Positions 1 to 6,502 of a stretch of DNA of 8,702 bases are shown here, piece after piece. Position numbers and translations under genes: made by a program. Under the pieces are notes generated by a model. It ran no database searches and had not been told where the DNA came from. It was given only the letters and a program-made list of their open reading frames with translations. Position 1 is the stretch's first letter; the number at the start of each line of letters is the position of its first letter. The stretch spans positions 3,881-12,582 of the forward strand of contig PLZL01000121.1 of assembly GCA_003152145.1 (NCBI GenBank), read 5' to 3'. Origin of the DNA: Limisphaerales bacterium. Lineage in GTDB: Bacteria; Verrucomicrobiota; Verrucomicrobiae; Limisphaerales; UBA11358.

Positions 1-28
1 GGTGACGGGTGACGGGTGACGGGAAACG
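1..28. repeat. Heptanucleotide tandem repeat GGTGACG x3 plus a degenerate fourth unit
   Basis: Three perfect 7-bp units (1-7, 8-14, 15-21) are followed by GGAAACG (22-28). The array touches the window edge, so its true length is unknown. Read on the minus strand it lies inside the open recG frame and encodes a segment like PVTRHPSP, unlike the helicase sequence expected there. Because 7 is not a multiple of 3, copy-number changes here would shift the recG frame. Confidence 0.85.
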
Positions 29-1232
29 CGGCGCGTTTTTTCGTGTCACTTGCCACTTGCCACTTGTCACTTGCCGTCTTGCGACTTCCCGTCTGCAACT
101 CTACTTTCATTCCGAGCGGCTCGAACCATTTTTGAAAATTCCGGAAATGCTGCTCCGCTAAGATCTCCGTCGGCGCCATCAGCGCAGCGTTGAAACCACT
201 TTCCAAAGCCATCAACGCCGTGCAAGCGGCTACGACGGTTTTGCCGGAACCAACGTCGCCTTGCAATAGCCGCCGCATCGGATGCGCGCCGCCCATATCC
301 GCGCGAATTTCGCGGAGAACTTTCGTCTGCGCGTCCGTGAGCTTGAAACCAAGCTGGGCAAGAAATGGTTTCATCAGCCGATTATCGCCGCCACAGGGCA
401 AAGCTTTCGACTTCGCCTCGAAATTTTTCCGGCGCGACTGAATTTGGATTTGCAGTTCCACGAATTCATCCAGTGCCAGACGACGACGCGCGATTTCGAC
501 GTCCGTCAATTCCTCCGGAAAATGAATCATGTGGACGGCATTGGCGCGCGACGGAATGTAGGACAGGCTTCCAGCCTGTTTCTGATTTTGACCTGAAGAT
601 GGAGACAGGCGCGACGCCTGTCCTACAGAATTTGGTTCGGCAATCTGCGATTCAAATCTTTCCAGCGTCCGCCAAATCAGCCCGCGCAGCCAGCGTTGCG
701 GCAATCCTTCCGTGAGCGGATACACCGGCGCGATGCGGTTGACGTGGATGAAACTCTCTTCGCCGCCTTCGATGACCTCGGTTTCGGGATGGTCCATCGT
801 GCGCGGCTTGGCCTCGACGAGCTTGCCGAAGACAAAAACCTCGTCGCCGACCTCAAAATACTTTTCCATGAACGGCAGGTTCCACCAGCGGCAATGCAGC
901 CGCGCCGAGCCGTCATCGAGGATGAATTCAAAAAGGGATTTGCCACCACCGCGAAAACGTTTCAGCCCCTGCGCGACTATTGTGCCGCGCGCCGTGAACG
1001 GTTCGTCCTTCGTCAGTTCGGTGATTTTTCGGAAATGCCGGCGGTCTTCGTAACGGCGCGGCGCGTGCAGGAGCAAATCCTCGATAGTAACGATGCCGAG
1101 CCGGGCAAGCTGCGCCGCGCGCTCTCCGCCAACACCCCAAAGAGAAGTCACCGGCCTTTGCAACGCAGACGTTGCTTCGTCCCGGCCAGCAGGCGCGGTG
1201 GGCGGCGAGGTTTTGATTTCCGTCGGCGACAT
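1..1232 (-). CDS. recG: ATP-dependent DNA helicase RecG, N-terminal part (runs off left edge)
   Basis: RecG is a superfamily 2 DNA translocase that rewinds and regresses stalled replication forks and processes recombination intermediates in the cytoplasm. The frame is open from an ATG at 1232 to the window edge (410 codons; family members are about 690-700 residues). Visible in order: HhH-like start (LWGVGGERAAQLARLG, about 31-46), LLLHAPRRYEDR (53-64), the OB-fold wedge domain (about 75-175, with SLFEFILDDGSARLHCRWWN), APVYPLTEGLPQ (168-179), HFPEELTDVEIARRRLALDE (237-256), the Q-like KLTDAQ (297-302), Walker A GDVGSGKT (325-332) and motif Ia MAPTEILAEQH (352-362). Two stretches do not look like RecG: residues 203-225, encoded by a palindromic repeat, and residues from about 386 on, encoded by heptamer repeats. 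The start was chosen because homology begins shortly after it; GTG at 1241 is an alternative. No good Shine-Dalgarno is seen. Identity is certain; whether the product is functional is not. Confidence 0.95.
   Translation of the reverse strand, partial: MSPTEIKTSPPTAPAGRDEATSALQRPVTSLWGVGGERAAQLARLGIVTIEDLLLHAPRRYEDRRHFRKITELTKDEPFTARGTIVAQGLKRFRGGGKSLFEFILDDGSARLHCRWWNLPFMEKYFEVGDEVFVFGKLVEAKPRTMDHPETEVIEGGEESFIHVNRIAPVYPLTEGLPQRWLRGLIWRTLERFESQIAEPNSVGQASRLSPSSGQNQKQAGSLSYIPSRANAVHMIHFPEELTDVEIARRRLALDEFVELQIQIQSRRKNFEAKSKALPCGGDNRLMKPFLAQLGFKLTDAQTKVLREIRADMGGAHPMRRLLQGDVGSGKTVVAACTALMALESGFNAALMAPTEILAEQHFRNFQKWFEPLGMKVELQTGSRKTASDKWQVASDTKKRAAFPVTRHPS
46..94. repeat. Heptanucleotide tandem repeat, (C/T)CACTTG units with degenerate tail
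   Basis: Four clean 7-bp units TCACTTG, CCACTTG, CCACTTG, TCACTTG occupy 46-73. They decay into CCGTCTT, GCGACTT and CCCGTCT up to 94. On the minus strand this is translated within recG as a low-complexity stretch (ASDKWQVASD) directly after the recognisable LQTGSRK. It shares the 7-bp period with the array at 1-28, from which it is separated by about 17 bp, so the two may be one diverged array. Confidence 0.8.
558..626. repeat. REPIN-like double-hairpin palindromic element inside recG
   Basis: The element begins GTAGGACAGGC and ends GCCTGTCCTAC, a perfect 11-bp terminal inverted repeat. Each half is itself a hairpin: ACAGGCT-TCC-AGCCTGT (563-579, 7-bp stem, 3-nt loop) and GACAGGCG-CGA-CGCCTGTC (604-622, 8-bp stem, 3-nt loop). 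Two inverted REP-like hairpins with a short spacer is the organisation of REPIN elements. The length of 69 bp equals exactly 23 recG codons (residues 203-225, VGQASRLS...AGSLSY), so the frame is kept. It sits in the linker between the wedge domain and the helicase core. Confidence 0.85.
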
Positions 1233-4315: not shown

Positions 4316-4969
4316 CTATTTGCGCGCAAATTTTTCCAGTGCGTCGAACAGCAACGGCGGGTTCCCCAGATGCGCCGGGTCGCCCTTTTTGCCGACAAGG
4401 CCGAAACCTTCGCCGTAGGCGGGGCCATTCACCACGCACAAATCGGTCGAACACTCCACAATTTGCCGACGCGTCGCCTCGACGGCTTCCGGTCGCCTGC
4501 CGTCCGCCTCGAATTTCCAGCCGACAATCTTTGTTTGTGGAAACCAACCGCGCAATTCCGCGATGATTTTTGGCGTCGGCAGCAATTCGACGAGCAATTT
4601 CCCCTGCCGCGTTGTGATTTTTTTGGCCGATTTGATTTCAACCAGCTTGTTTGCGGCGTCCGGCGCGAAAATCCTGCCAAATGAAAAATCGCTGACCGCC
4701 GCCGCGTGAAAAATCACGTCCACCTTTTTTGACGCCAGCGTCTTCATCTTGGCGCGCAAATCGGCGGTGGTGGAGAAAGATTCGACGCGCTGGGCGCGCC
4801 GTTCGCCGGCATACGTCGCCTGTTCGCCAAGCAGCAGGATGACATTGTGCCCGCGCGCGGCTAGGTAATTGGCCAGCGCCGTGCCCAGCCGGCCCGTGGA
4901 TAAATTTGTGAGCCGGCGCACGTCGTCCAGCGGCTCGTAAGTTGGCCCGGCGGTGACGATGCAGTTCAT
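4316..4969 (-). CDS. coaB: Phosphopantothenate-cysteine ligase (stand-alone CoaB)
   Basis: CoaB joins phosphopantothenate and cysteine using a nucleotide triphosphate, the second step of coenzyme A synthesis in the cytosol. The 217-residue product shows the nucleotide-binding start TAGPTYEPLDDVRRLTNLST (6-25) with GRLG (27-29 region), HAAAVSDF (88-95), the lysine-rich KSAKK (113-117), PTPKII (131-136), VGWKFE (149-154) and D...VVNGPAYG (176-186). In most bacteria this domain is fused behind the decarboxylase CoaC; here only the ligase is present and the ATG at 4969 is followed directly by the domain, so it is a free-standing enzyme and coaC must lie elsewhere. Its stop is 2 bp from that of the convergent permease. 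No Shine-Dalgarno is visible; three 9-bp repeats lie just upstream. Confidence 0.9.
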   Translation of the reverse strand: MNCIVTAGPTYEPLDDVRRLTNLSTGRLGTALANYLAARGHNVILLLGEQATYAGERRAQRVESFSTTADLRAKMKTLASKKVDVIFHAAAVSDFSFGRIFAPDAANKLVEIKSAKKITTRQGKLLVELLPTPKIIAELRGWFPQTKIVGWKFEADGRRPEAVEATRRQIVECSTDLCVVNGPAYGEGFGLVGKKGDPAHLGNPPLLFDALEKFARK

Positions 4970-5010: not shown

Positions 5011-5057
5011 AATTTTCCGGGTTGGAATCCGGACGGACTTTTGGGAATTATTTTGGG

Positions 5058-5148
5058 GGAGCGCGGATTGTCCCAATCCGCAGCGGGTGGAAAAATCCCA
5101 CACCATCAGTCTGGCGAAGGCGCTGCGAGTTGGGACAACTCGCGCTCC
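5058..5148. repeat. Second REPIN-like double-hairpin element with covarying stems
   Basis: Outer arms GGAGCGCG (5058-5065) and CGCGCTCC (5141-5148) are inverted, as are CGCAGCG (5079-5085) and CGCTGCG (5121-5127). Inside are two hairpins: GCGGATTG-TCC-CAATCCGC (5063-5081) and GCGAGTTG-GGA-CAACTCGC (5125-5143), each with a perfect 8-bp stem. When one hairpin is reverse-complemented the 28-bp halves differ at only four positions, which are two compensated base pairs. This conserved pairing supports a selected DNA or RNA structure rather than chance palindromes. It is intergenic, between coaB and the sigma-associated gene. A related single half may be at 1279-1300. Confidence 0.85.
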
Positions 5149-5181
5149 GCAAACGGGCGCGGGCGGGACGCGCGGGGCAAC

Positions 5182-5969: not shown

Positions 5970-6242
5970 TTAGTGCCGACGTCGGAAAACGGACAAACCT
6001 TTTTGAATTATTTTTGAATACAGCCACGCGGCCAGAACGATCTTGGGCCCCAGCGTCGCGGCCTTGCGCGCGATGATGATGAACACGGCCTGTGTGATTT
6101 CCTCGGCCAGATGCGCGTCGCGCACCTGCCGCACCGCCGCCGAGTGGACGAGGCCGATGTGCCGCTGCACCAGCGCGGCAAACGCGGGATCGGACCGGCT
6201 GGCGGCGAATTTCCGCACCAGCGTCATGTCATCGCCCATCAT
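5970..6242 (-). pseudogene. ECF-type RNA polymerase sigma factor, region 2 only (truncated)
   Basis: The 90-residue product reads as the N-terminal half of a verrucomicrobial sigma-70 family (ECF) factor: [36 protein letters not shown] and the region 2 core [18 protein letters not shown] with AAWLY. After WLY the homology stops, base composition drops sharply in GC, and the frame ends after [15 protein letters not shown]. Regions 3 and 4, needed to read the -35 element, are absent (normally another 90-100 residues or more). The remaining frame continues past one TAA (5972-5970) into the membrane/coiled-coil gene without a phase change (NNKAGKRNFKF then M). This fits an internal deletion in a once continuous sigma-membrane fusion gene. 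AGGTG shortly before the ATG at 6242 is a plausible ribosome site; the GTG at 6245 or ATG at 6239 are alternatives. Unlikely to act as a sigma factor. Confidence 0.75.
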
Positions 6243-6502
6243 CACCTATACATGGCCGCAGAACGGGGAAACGGACAATATTTTTCTTCATTTTATTGTA
6301 ATGGCGCTCTGTGAGGGTCGTGGTGGCGGGCGGCAAGGCACGGCGTTCACAGACCGCCGCCACAATGTGAAACGGATAATTTTGGGGAAATAAACTGTCA
6401 TGACTCCAAGGTGGGAAGGATTTGCATTAAAAGTTGTAGTGTCGGTGCTGTGCGCCGATCTTTTCGGGTTGCTGGCTAGACGCTACACCTGTTTTGGAAG
6501 GT
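6243..6502. other. Intergenic region with a large imperfect inverted repeat
   Basis: No convincing gene is seen. GTGGCGGGCGG (6323-6333) and CCGCCGCCAC (6354-6363) can pair with one bulge across a 20-nt loop, upstream of the sigma remnant on its coding strand, so it could lie in that gene's leader. CACAATGTG (6361-6369) is a short near-palindrome. A plus-strand frame from ATG 6400 was considered and set aside. Confidence 0.4.

Follow-up and report, generated by a model that had tools for sequence, protein, structure and literature searches.

The DNA analysed here, hereafter the window, is an 8,702-nucleotide stretch of contig PLZL01000121.1 (positions 3,881 to 12,582; assembly GCA_003152145.1) from a Limisphaerales bacterium of the Verrucomicrobiota. 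It begins inside recG, and this gene contains a 69-bp element made of two repetitive extragenic palindromic (REP) hairpins in inverted orientation, the arrangement of a REPIN. The gene, the parts of the element and a second repeat stretch in the same gene are as follows.

1 to 1232, minus strand: recG coding sequence, start codon ATG at 1232-1230, 3' part outside the window; RecG_wedge and DEAD domains (open reading frame and Pfam).
558 to 626, no strand: REPIN of two GTAG-type REP hairpins, inverted and outward-facing, encoding RecG residues 203-225 (sequence, fold and repeat search).
558 to 579, plus strand: REP half GTAGGACAGGCTTCCAGCCTGT (direct reading); an identical 22-mer lies near a REP-associated tyrosine transposase (RAYT) in locus L394.
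580 to 604, no strand: spacer separating the REP halves (direct reading).
605 to 626, minus strand: REP half GTAGGACAGGCGTCGCGCCTGT; identical 22-mers lie around the DinG-embedded RAYT of locus L393.
1 to 94, no strand: second in-frame repeat stretch, GTGACGG x3.3 (1-23) and CACTTGC x5.7 (47-87), encoding SDKWQVASDTKKRAAFPVTRHPSPVT; heptamer arrays at the second recG hotspot, before IGTHAL.

Direct reading confirmed the perfect 11-bp terminal inverted repeats and the two hairpins with 3-nt loops that the preliminary description had reported within 69 bp. The terminal repeats are GTAGGACAGGC (558-568) and GCCTGTCCTAC (616-626) and reach 12 bp when T557 and A627 are counted; a repeat search returned 26-nt arms (557-582 and 602-627) at 85%. 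Hairpin 1 (ACAGGCT-TCC-AGCCTGT, 563-579) has a 7-bp stem and hairpin 2 (GACAGGCG-CGA-CGCCTGTC, 604-622) a stem of 8 bp. GTAG or CTAC stands at both ends of the element and adjoins these stems, as the foot of a GTAG REP does, and the two inverted REPs form one unit, as in a REPIN. The single-stranded fold of the element reached -17.3 kcal/mol (z = -6.1), and none of 200 shuffles folded equally well. No Rfam family matched the window at gathering thresholds.

The element corresponds to 23 codons, and recG reads its minus strand as VGQASRLSPSSGQNQKQAGSLSY, using one of the three open frames among the six possible. It is thus an in-frame palindromic repeat within a conserved open reading frame (ORF), as are the Rickettsia palindromic elements (RPE). 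Its length is divisible by three, as claimed beforehand; this is not distinctive, since the other perfectly GTAG/GTGG-bounded inserts found in recG linkers measure 30, 69, 69, 70, 72 and 89 bp. The full-length protein (P0001; 719 amino acids (aa), six member sequences on seven contigs) has an intact frame through the element, and an OB-fold match in the RecG part encoded by the window fell slightly below the Pfam cut-off.

A further double-hairpin inverted repeat was seen at 5053-5153, between two frames; its 33-nt arms are 82% complementary and it resembles a second REPIN-like family.

The RecG linker in related bacteria

The stretch from TLERFESQIAEP to RANAVHMIHFPEE varied from 36 to 75 residues, flanks included, across the 120 listed nearest RecG proteins, and both of its sides were conserved. 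We sorted 292 rows (these 120 proteins, 171 genome genes and the window) by hand-written word patterns, so that the classes are approximate: 92 had a short form (a segment of at most 40 aa including flanks, with no repeat word), 136 were placed in eleven classes of repeat-like peptides and 64 were assigned to none. In its core, the nearest short-form RecG, P0049, shares 93.3% identity with P0001. Because the stretch varies between conserved sides and short relatives do without the extra residues, these residues are new. The expectation that relatives would lack residues 203-225 was therefore borne out; that of perfectly clean flanks was not. RecG sequence does resume at AEP and at P-S-R-A-N-A-V around the insert, as the preliminary description had it, but short-form relatives have a nine-residue spacer between the flanks (like KPxPDLKxF; KPTPDLKMF in P0049) that the window lacks. 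Either the insertion deleted this spacer or an older insert was exchanged.

The preliminary description had also expected a multicopy element. The half-element GTAGGACAGGCNNNNNGCCTGT, with at most one mismatch, was present in 17 of 20 related Verrucomicrobia genomes at 2-166 copies each (166, 118, 63 and 49 in the four richest), compared with a total of two matches to a reversed control pattern across all 20. Many half-elements among the matches listed are paired as in a REPIN, facing outward with their starts about 30-110 bp apart. Y1_Tnp (PF01797) genes were found in 18 of the same 20 genomes and also in 5 of 14 control genomes; this Pfam family comprises IS200-type transposases as well as RAYTs. 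Judged from its sequence relatives, the window element is a member of a putatively mobile family.

Collectively, the data indicated that a REPIN landed in the RecG linker and survived because it was in frame at a place where the linker tolerates changes of length; we put the probability of this reading at about 0.88. The core of the preliminary description, a REPIN captured as protein sequence, is right: it is supported by the anatomy of the element, by its multicopy relatives, by its absence from close relatives of this RecG and, as described below, by a RAYT flanked by its REPs in locus L393 and by the filling of this linker, time and again, with unrelated repeat families.

The insert is not an isolated case in recG. 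We searched 173 distinct recG genes, reduced from 238, for strong inverted repeats (perfect arms of at least 11, spacer of at most 90); recG was matched in 46 of 49 and in 258 of 293 genomes, of which only part of the genes was taken in. Two ranges picked after the profile had been seen, P0001 residues 200-239 and 400-419, held 16 and 13 inverted repeats, against 1.4 and 1.6 in synonymous-codon shuffles (mean of five), while the remainder of recG held 14 against 19.6. One of these 14 (L149, residue 399) is an artefact of an N-run, and the repeat of L043 at residue 238 falls in conserved sequence. The window carries repeats at both hotspots, the REPIN at site 1 and, at site 2, the heptamer arrays, which fall outside the inverted-repeat filter.

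The repeats at site 1 belong to several families. Inserts perfectly bounded by GTAG/GTGG, of 30 to 89 bp, were found in 7 of 172 linkers (the window, L118, L132, L150, L151, L160 and L215). Other families were GGAGTTCCGCCTTCAGGCGG (L011), GGGGCGCGGCCTTCAGGCCGC (L007) and CCCTCTCCCCTTCCGAAGGGGAGAGGG (L020), and further linkers held inverted heptamer arrays (L009) or inverted hexamer-like arrays (L057). Altogether about ten insert families occupy site 1: eight peptide classes, with A1-A4 taken as one, plus L007, L020 and L057 from the unassigned class. For class I, L215, L027, L178 and L241 were caught by a loose pattern, and L160 proved to be GTAG-bounded. We conclude that many repeat families have landed, again and again, in the RecG linker and that the same gene has a second such site. 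The record of L057 is titled Klebsiella pneumoniae (a metagenome bin), and its RecG is 58% identical to that of the window; the title is probably wrong.

Turnover at the linker is fast. Core identity was computed without the two hotspot sites, and the window row was left out of the pairwise table as the same gene as P0001. The linker class was shared by 4 of 4 RecG pairs at 99% identity or more, by 7 of 25 pairs at 96% to below 99% (18 differed) and by 76 of 563 at 93% to below 96%; in these counts A1-A4 were treated as different, although they may be one family, and two unassigned linkers as the same. The protein and genome sets overlap, P0072 and L105 sharing the same linker. In a FastTree of RecG with 290 rows the 13 classes required at least 129 changes, and class B alone, which has 36 members in the full set of 292 classified rows, required 32. 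The RecG tree points to the same fast turnover but shows so little phylogenetic signal that we relied on the pairwise table. Exchange of recG alleles between species, which is compatible with the landing of a REPIN, could have spread the inserts in place of fresh transposition, and the loose tie between linker class and core similarity, like the number of changes on the tree, agrees with it. In that case, however, the flanking core should have travelled along, yet RecG proteins whose cores are as much as 98.3% identical (P0103 and P0105) carry unrelated inserts, and we regard allele exchange as quite improbable.

Other genes served as controls in one family of 49 genomes, with the 30 best-scoring loci per gene (the genomes thus differ between genes) and frames read from stop to stop. 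In recG 11 inverted repeats lay in 8 of 30 genes (shuffle mean 2.8), two of them (L116 and L132) outside the two sites. None occurred in gyrA or in a PolA-like nuclease (0 of 30 each; shuffle means 1.8 and 1.6), and the four in leuS (3 of 30 genes) were barely above the shuffle mean of 3.0. The count was 11 in priA (10 of 30 genes; shuffle mean 1.6), six of them just before the Walker A motif (STFLLHGVTGSGKT) and four near relative position 0.9, and 14 in mfd (12 of 29 genes, one locus having no frame; shuffle mean 4.6). The other ORFs of the recG loci, from the 90 of 113 loci kept once overlaps were removed, showed a small excess, with 49 inverted repeats in 791 kb, or 0.062 per kb against 0.039 when shuffled; DNA outside ORFs gave 0.29 per kb. 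These rates indicated that the excess falls mainly in the linkers of a small number of proteins, which include DNA helicases; the sample of genes is small.

Two side observations were made. An Mfd-like frame in L022 (278-3908) holds four strong inverted repeats that encode repeat-like peptides. In 45 of 49 genomes the PolA model matched only over about its first 290 positions (350 in one case), never above cut-off; these genomes may lack the polymerase part or have a very different one.

The uneven distribution also bears on domestication, in which an mRNA hairpin or the added peptide would tune RecG and so favour repeated refilling of the linker, a view compatible with the landing of a REPIN. 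It draws on the contrast of recG, priA and mfd with gyrA, leuS and the PolA-like nuclease, and on a bias to repair genes reported in the parts of an earlier study available to us (PMC3733652). Against it, ThrRS, AlaRS, ClpB and UDPGP proteins carry the RAYT form of the insert, and LeuS of L324 carries a REP peptide, recognised by eye. We consider domestication unlikely, though deserving some weight. The same cases weaken the idea that only repair genes are hit.

REP-associated transposases inside host proteins

Some PF01797 matches lay in frames of about 1000 codons and, on reading, proved to be whole RAYT-like sequences in frame inside host proteins. The HxH motif was found in 19 RAYT rows, some of them from the same genome place, as HVH in 17 and as HLH and HTH in one each. 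Y1_Tnp scored above the Pfam cut-off in all ten ORFs scanned. Host domains flank or span it in six (DinG-like helicase in L393, SNF2 helicase in L399, DnaE in L403, PriA in L412, restriction subunit R in L414 and ClpB in L415) and lie on one side only in three (UDPGP in L404, restriction ATPase in L418 and an uncertain one in L419); for L406 the Pfam family scan found no host domain. In NCBIfam at least one model each for DnaE, PriA and ClpB passed its cut-off, and DinG/YoaA remained below; ThrRS (L453), AlaRS (L458 and L463) and PriA (L464) were also above cut-off, and L356 combined PriA with Y1_Tnp. The REP_Tyr_transpos model gave 45-76 bits for single copies (cut-off 80) and 140 bits for AlaRS L458, which carries two RAYTs. 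The hosts, with the way in which they were recognised, are listed below.

PriA: L356, L373, L377, L464, L465 (family scan for L356, L464 and, via L412 at the same genome place, L465; the rest by eye).
DnaE: L381, L385, L391, L403, L413 (family scan for L403; the rest by eye).
DinG-like: L393-L398, L400, L401 (family scan for L393; the rest by eye).
ThrRS or AlaRS: L453-L463, L384 (family scan for L453, L458 and L463; the rest by eye).
ClpB: L415, L416 (family scan for L415; L416 by eye).

PriA gave one match per genome in G004, G021, G022, G030, G032 and G034, so that the interrupted copy is the only PriA detected there; the case of G021 was judged by matching frame lengths.

With the DinG-embedded RAYT as query, matches were obtained in at least 121 of the 293 genomes of the order. 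The best 31 all lay in frames of at least 646 aa, and 34 of the best 36 in frames of at least 550 aa (one with an internal TGA), the two exceptions measuring 247 and 280 aa. Of the weaker ones among the matches listed, 11 lay in frames above 500 aa and the rest in frames of at most 420 aa, which we took for standalone genes. The ThrRS-embedded RAYT gave 52 matches in 36 of the 293 genomes. The best 39 lay in stop-free frames of 555-1540 aa, a dividing line set after the list had been seen; of the other 13, 12 lay in frames below 350 aa and one in a frame of 1028. Sixteen of the 39 were read (15 ORFs: L453-L462, L384, L373, L377, L463 and L464), and in each the host was ThrRS, AlaRS or PriA, as recognised by family scans in L453, L458, L463 and L464 and by eye elsewhere. 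The stricter view that all RAYTs of these groups are embedded did not quite hold, given the two short frames among the best 36 and the standalone copies in a RAYT tree. In this tree, whose 49 rows come from 51 loci picked by best score and hence favour embedded copies, three standalone copies fell inside a mostly embedded group and standalone copies did not form a group of their own. Pfam and NCBIfam scans of the embedded-RAYT ORFs, in which splicing was not looked for, showed no intein domain among the matches listed; one host model is named 'intein-prone helicase'.

The embedded RAYTs could be connected to the window element through its REPs. In L393 the 22-mer GTAGGACAGGCGTCGCGCCTGT, letter for letter the half-element at window 605-626, faces outward on both sides of the RAYT match, 147 bp before and 72 bp after it, inside the DinG/YoaA-like helicase frame. 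This agrees with the expectation that a RAYT would accompany the element. L394 has one copy of GTAGGACAGGCGTCGCGCCTGT and one of GTAGGACAGGCTTCCAGCCTGT, the half at window 558-579; the latter lies 15 bp beyond the point where the RAYT match ends. L395 has one exact REP copy, and both L394 and L395 also carry diverged ones. A RAYT flanked by its REPs is called a REPtron in the part of the literature available to us (PMC3733652). Since a RAYT is flanked by the REP of the window, the DinG/DnaE type is the best candidate for the enzyme that would have moved the window's element.

A collapsed repeat or a mis-join during metagenome assembly could also have produced the insert, and nearly all of 80 relatives are titled as metagenome-assembled. 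Such an artefact is nevertheless extremely improbable: P0001 stands for six sequences on seven contigs, a mis-join at a repeat would rarely preserve a frame of 719 aa, and the related in-frame RAYT in AlaRS of L463 lies in a single contig of 4.73 Mb, which argues against an artefact of metagenome assembly.

Weighing the origin of the insert

Several observations weigh against the landing of a REPIN. No target-site duplication, the mark of a miniature element derived from an insertion sequence (IS-derived MITE), was visible by eye beside 558 and 626, and the loss of the nine spacer residues of empty relatives means that the insertion was not clean. Copy numbers and RAYT evidence come from the genomes of relatives, not from the window's own. 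The exact window REP lay beside the RAYT in 3 of 30 RAYT loci (L393-L395); a REP of its type, within 350 bp and with at most two mismatches, accompanied 14 of the 30 and none the other 16. No recG with an embedded RAYT was seen among the recG genes examined. The AlphaFold2 model of P0001 (45 sequences) was poor, with a mean pLDDT of 51.4 and a pTM of 0.34. Both sites are coil in this weak model (helix 180-192 to helix 230-233; strands 376-380 to 413-418), so that the flexibility of the linker is judged from this coil together with sequence variability; an alignment to the RecG structure PDB 1gm5 was gapped or of low confidence at both sites. Finally, a fold z of -4 or below was reached by 7 of 42 longer linkers (L007, L009, L011, L020, L030, L057 and the window), so most longer linkers are not strongly palindromic now.

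This last result would suit an ordinary, fast-evolving disordered linker whose palindrome arose by chance or codon bias: 35 of the 42 longer linkers folded had z above -4, linker length varies across the examined Verrucomicrobia, and 64 of the 292 linkers were assigned to no repeat class. The window element itself, however, folds at z = -6.1, its 22-mers recur at scattered places in other genomes, where the reversed control pattern hardly matched, and the 29 inverted repeats at the two sites stand against 3.0 in synonymous shuffles. A chance palindrome is therefore very unlikely.

We retain the landing of a REPIN and picture it as follows. A non-autonomous mobile element of two inverted GTAG-REP hairpins would have entered the RecG linker that joins the wedge to the helicase part, probably mobilised as single-stranded DNA by a RAYT of the DinG/DnaE-embedded type. 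It would have persisted since the insert is in frame and the linker tolerant of length change, the 23 extra residues being presumably about neutral. High insertion pressure in Limisphaerales-like Verrucomicrobia, with only some linkers of large proteins tolerating inserts, may complete the explanation. Given that a host protein carries the matching RAYT in frame, the insert in RecG could be the small form, lacking the transposase, of an element that normally resides in coding sequence.

A wider reading, towards which we lean with some reserve, joins the two sets of results. In Limisphaerales-like Verrucomicrobia, RAYT lineages would live as whole transposases in frame inside host proteins (DinG, DnaE, PriA, ThrRS, AlaRS, ClpB, SNF2 helicases and others), often framed by their own REPs and comparable in this to inteins, although no sign of splicing was seen. 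REPINs, which lack the transposase, would fill permissive linkers in RecG, PriA and Mfd so frequently that each species keeps there a record of the elements that have been active in it. A RAYT lodged in a gene indispensable to the cell would thereby be expressed, and only an excision that is precise or keeps the frame could remove it. Relative to the preliminary description, the new points are the refilling of one linker by many families and the transposase lineages that lie in frame within host proteins.

Elsewhere in the window, two possibly truncated genes were noted: a 217-aa frame carrying a DFP domain as in CoaBC-type proteins (4316-4969) and a 91-aa frame with sigma-70 region 2 only (5970-6245).

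Known systems and wider meaning

The 2011 study of REPINs reportedly treated two inverted REPs as a mobile unit and dealt mainly with extragenic elements of Pseudomonas. The window element shares the two inverted REPs and differs in being coding. RPE are likewise in-frame palindromic repeats in many ORFs that probably encode working proteins; their sequences are presumably different, and they are not known to have a RAYT. Inteins form long in-frame insertions in large conserved proteins such as DnaE and helicases. The embedded RAYTs resemble them in this, although a RAYT is an HUH nuclease and not a homing endonuclease; the insert of the window has 23 residues.

The closest precedent is the GTAG-REP superfamily (Di Nocera et al. 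2013, PMC3733652), which, in the parts of the paper available to us, has been sorted into families, Opitutus terrae having the highest number of intragenic GTAG repeats. The window element shares its GTAG/GTGG foot, short stem, loop of mostly 2-3 nt and RAYT association, and the dimers described there have inverted units mostly 20-100 bp apart. In-frame REPs are reported in uvrA, recBCD, ligase and other repair genes, including uvrA and DNA ligase of the Verrucomicrobium O. terrae, and flexible linkers or effects on mutation rate were suggested; the recB REPs of X. campestris and X. oryzae lie at about the same site and others at different sites (PMC3733652). The insert of the window is a further member of this class of in-frame REPs in repair genes. 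The main text of that paper does not name recG, and neither the refilling of one linker by many families nor RAYTs in frame in host genes is described in the parts of it available to us. A 2018 study of the TnpA-REP superfamily, in the parts available to us, concerns REP-associated transposases as well, and reports REPs in frame inside tnpA-REP genes of subclass 2.4 (PMC6006769). There the REP sits in the transposase, whereas here the transposase sits in a host gene; unexpectedly long proteins were discarded in that study as fusions or annotation errors (PMC6006769). No description of host-embedded RAYTs or of REPs in recG was found in titles and abstract openings, a search that left subscription papers mostly, and preprints wholly, outside.

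Surveys that dropped unexpectedly long RAYTs could have missed embedded ones. The old hint that REPs prefer repair genes becomes testable with gene-by-gene controls, and the recG linkers offer natural replicates for asking what a linker tolerates. In these bacteria mobile hairpins supply raw material for protein sequence, and so fast that inserts differ between helicases whose cores are 96-99% identical. Should the embedded transposases prove active, they would represent a mobile element that survives as part of conserved proteins.
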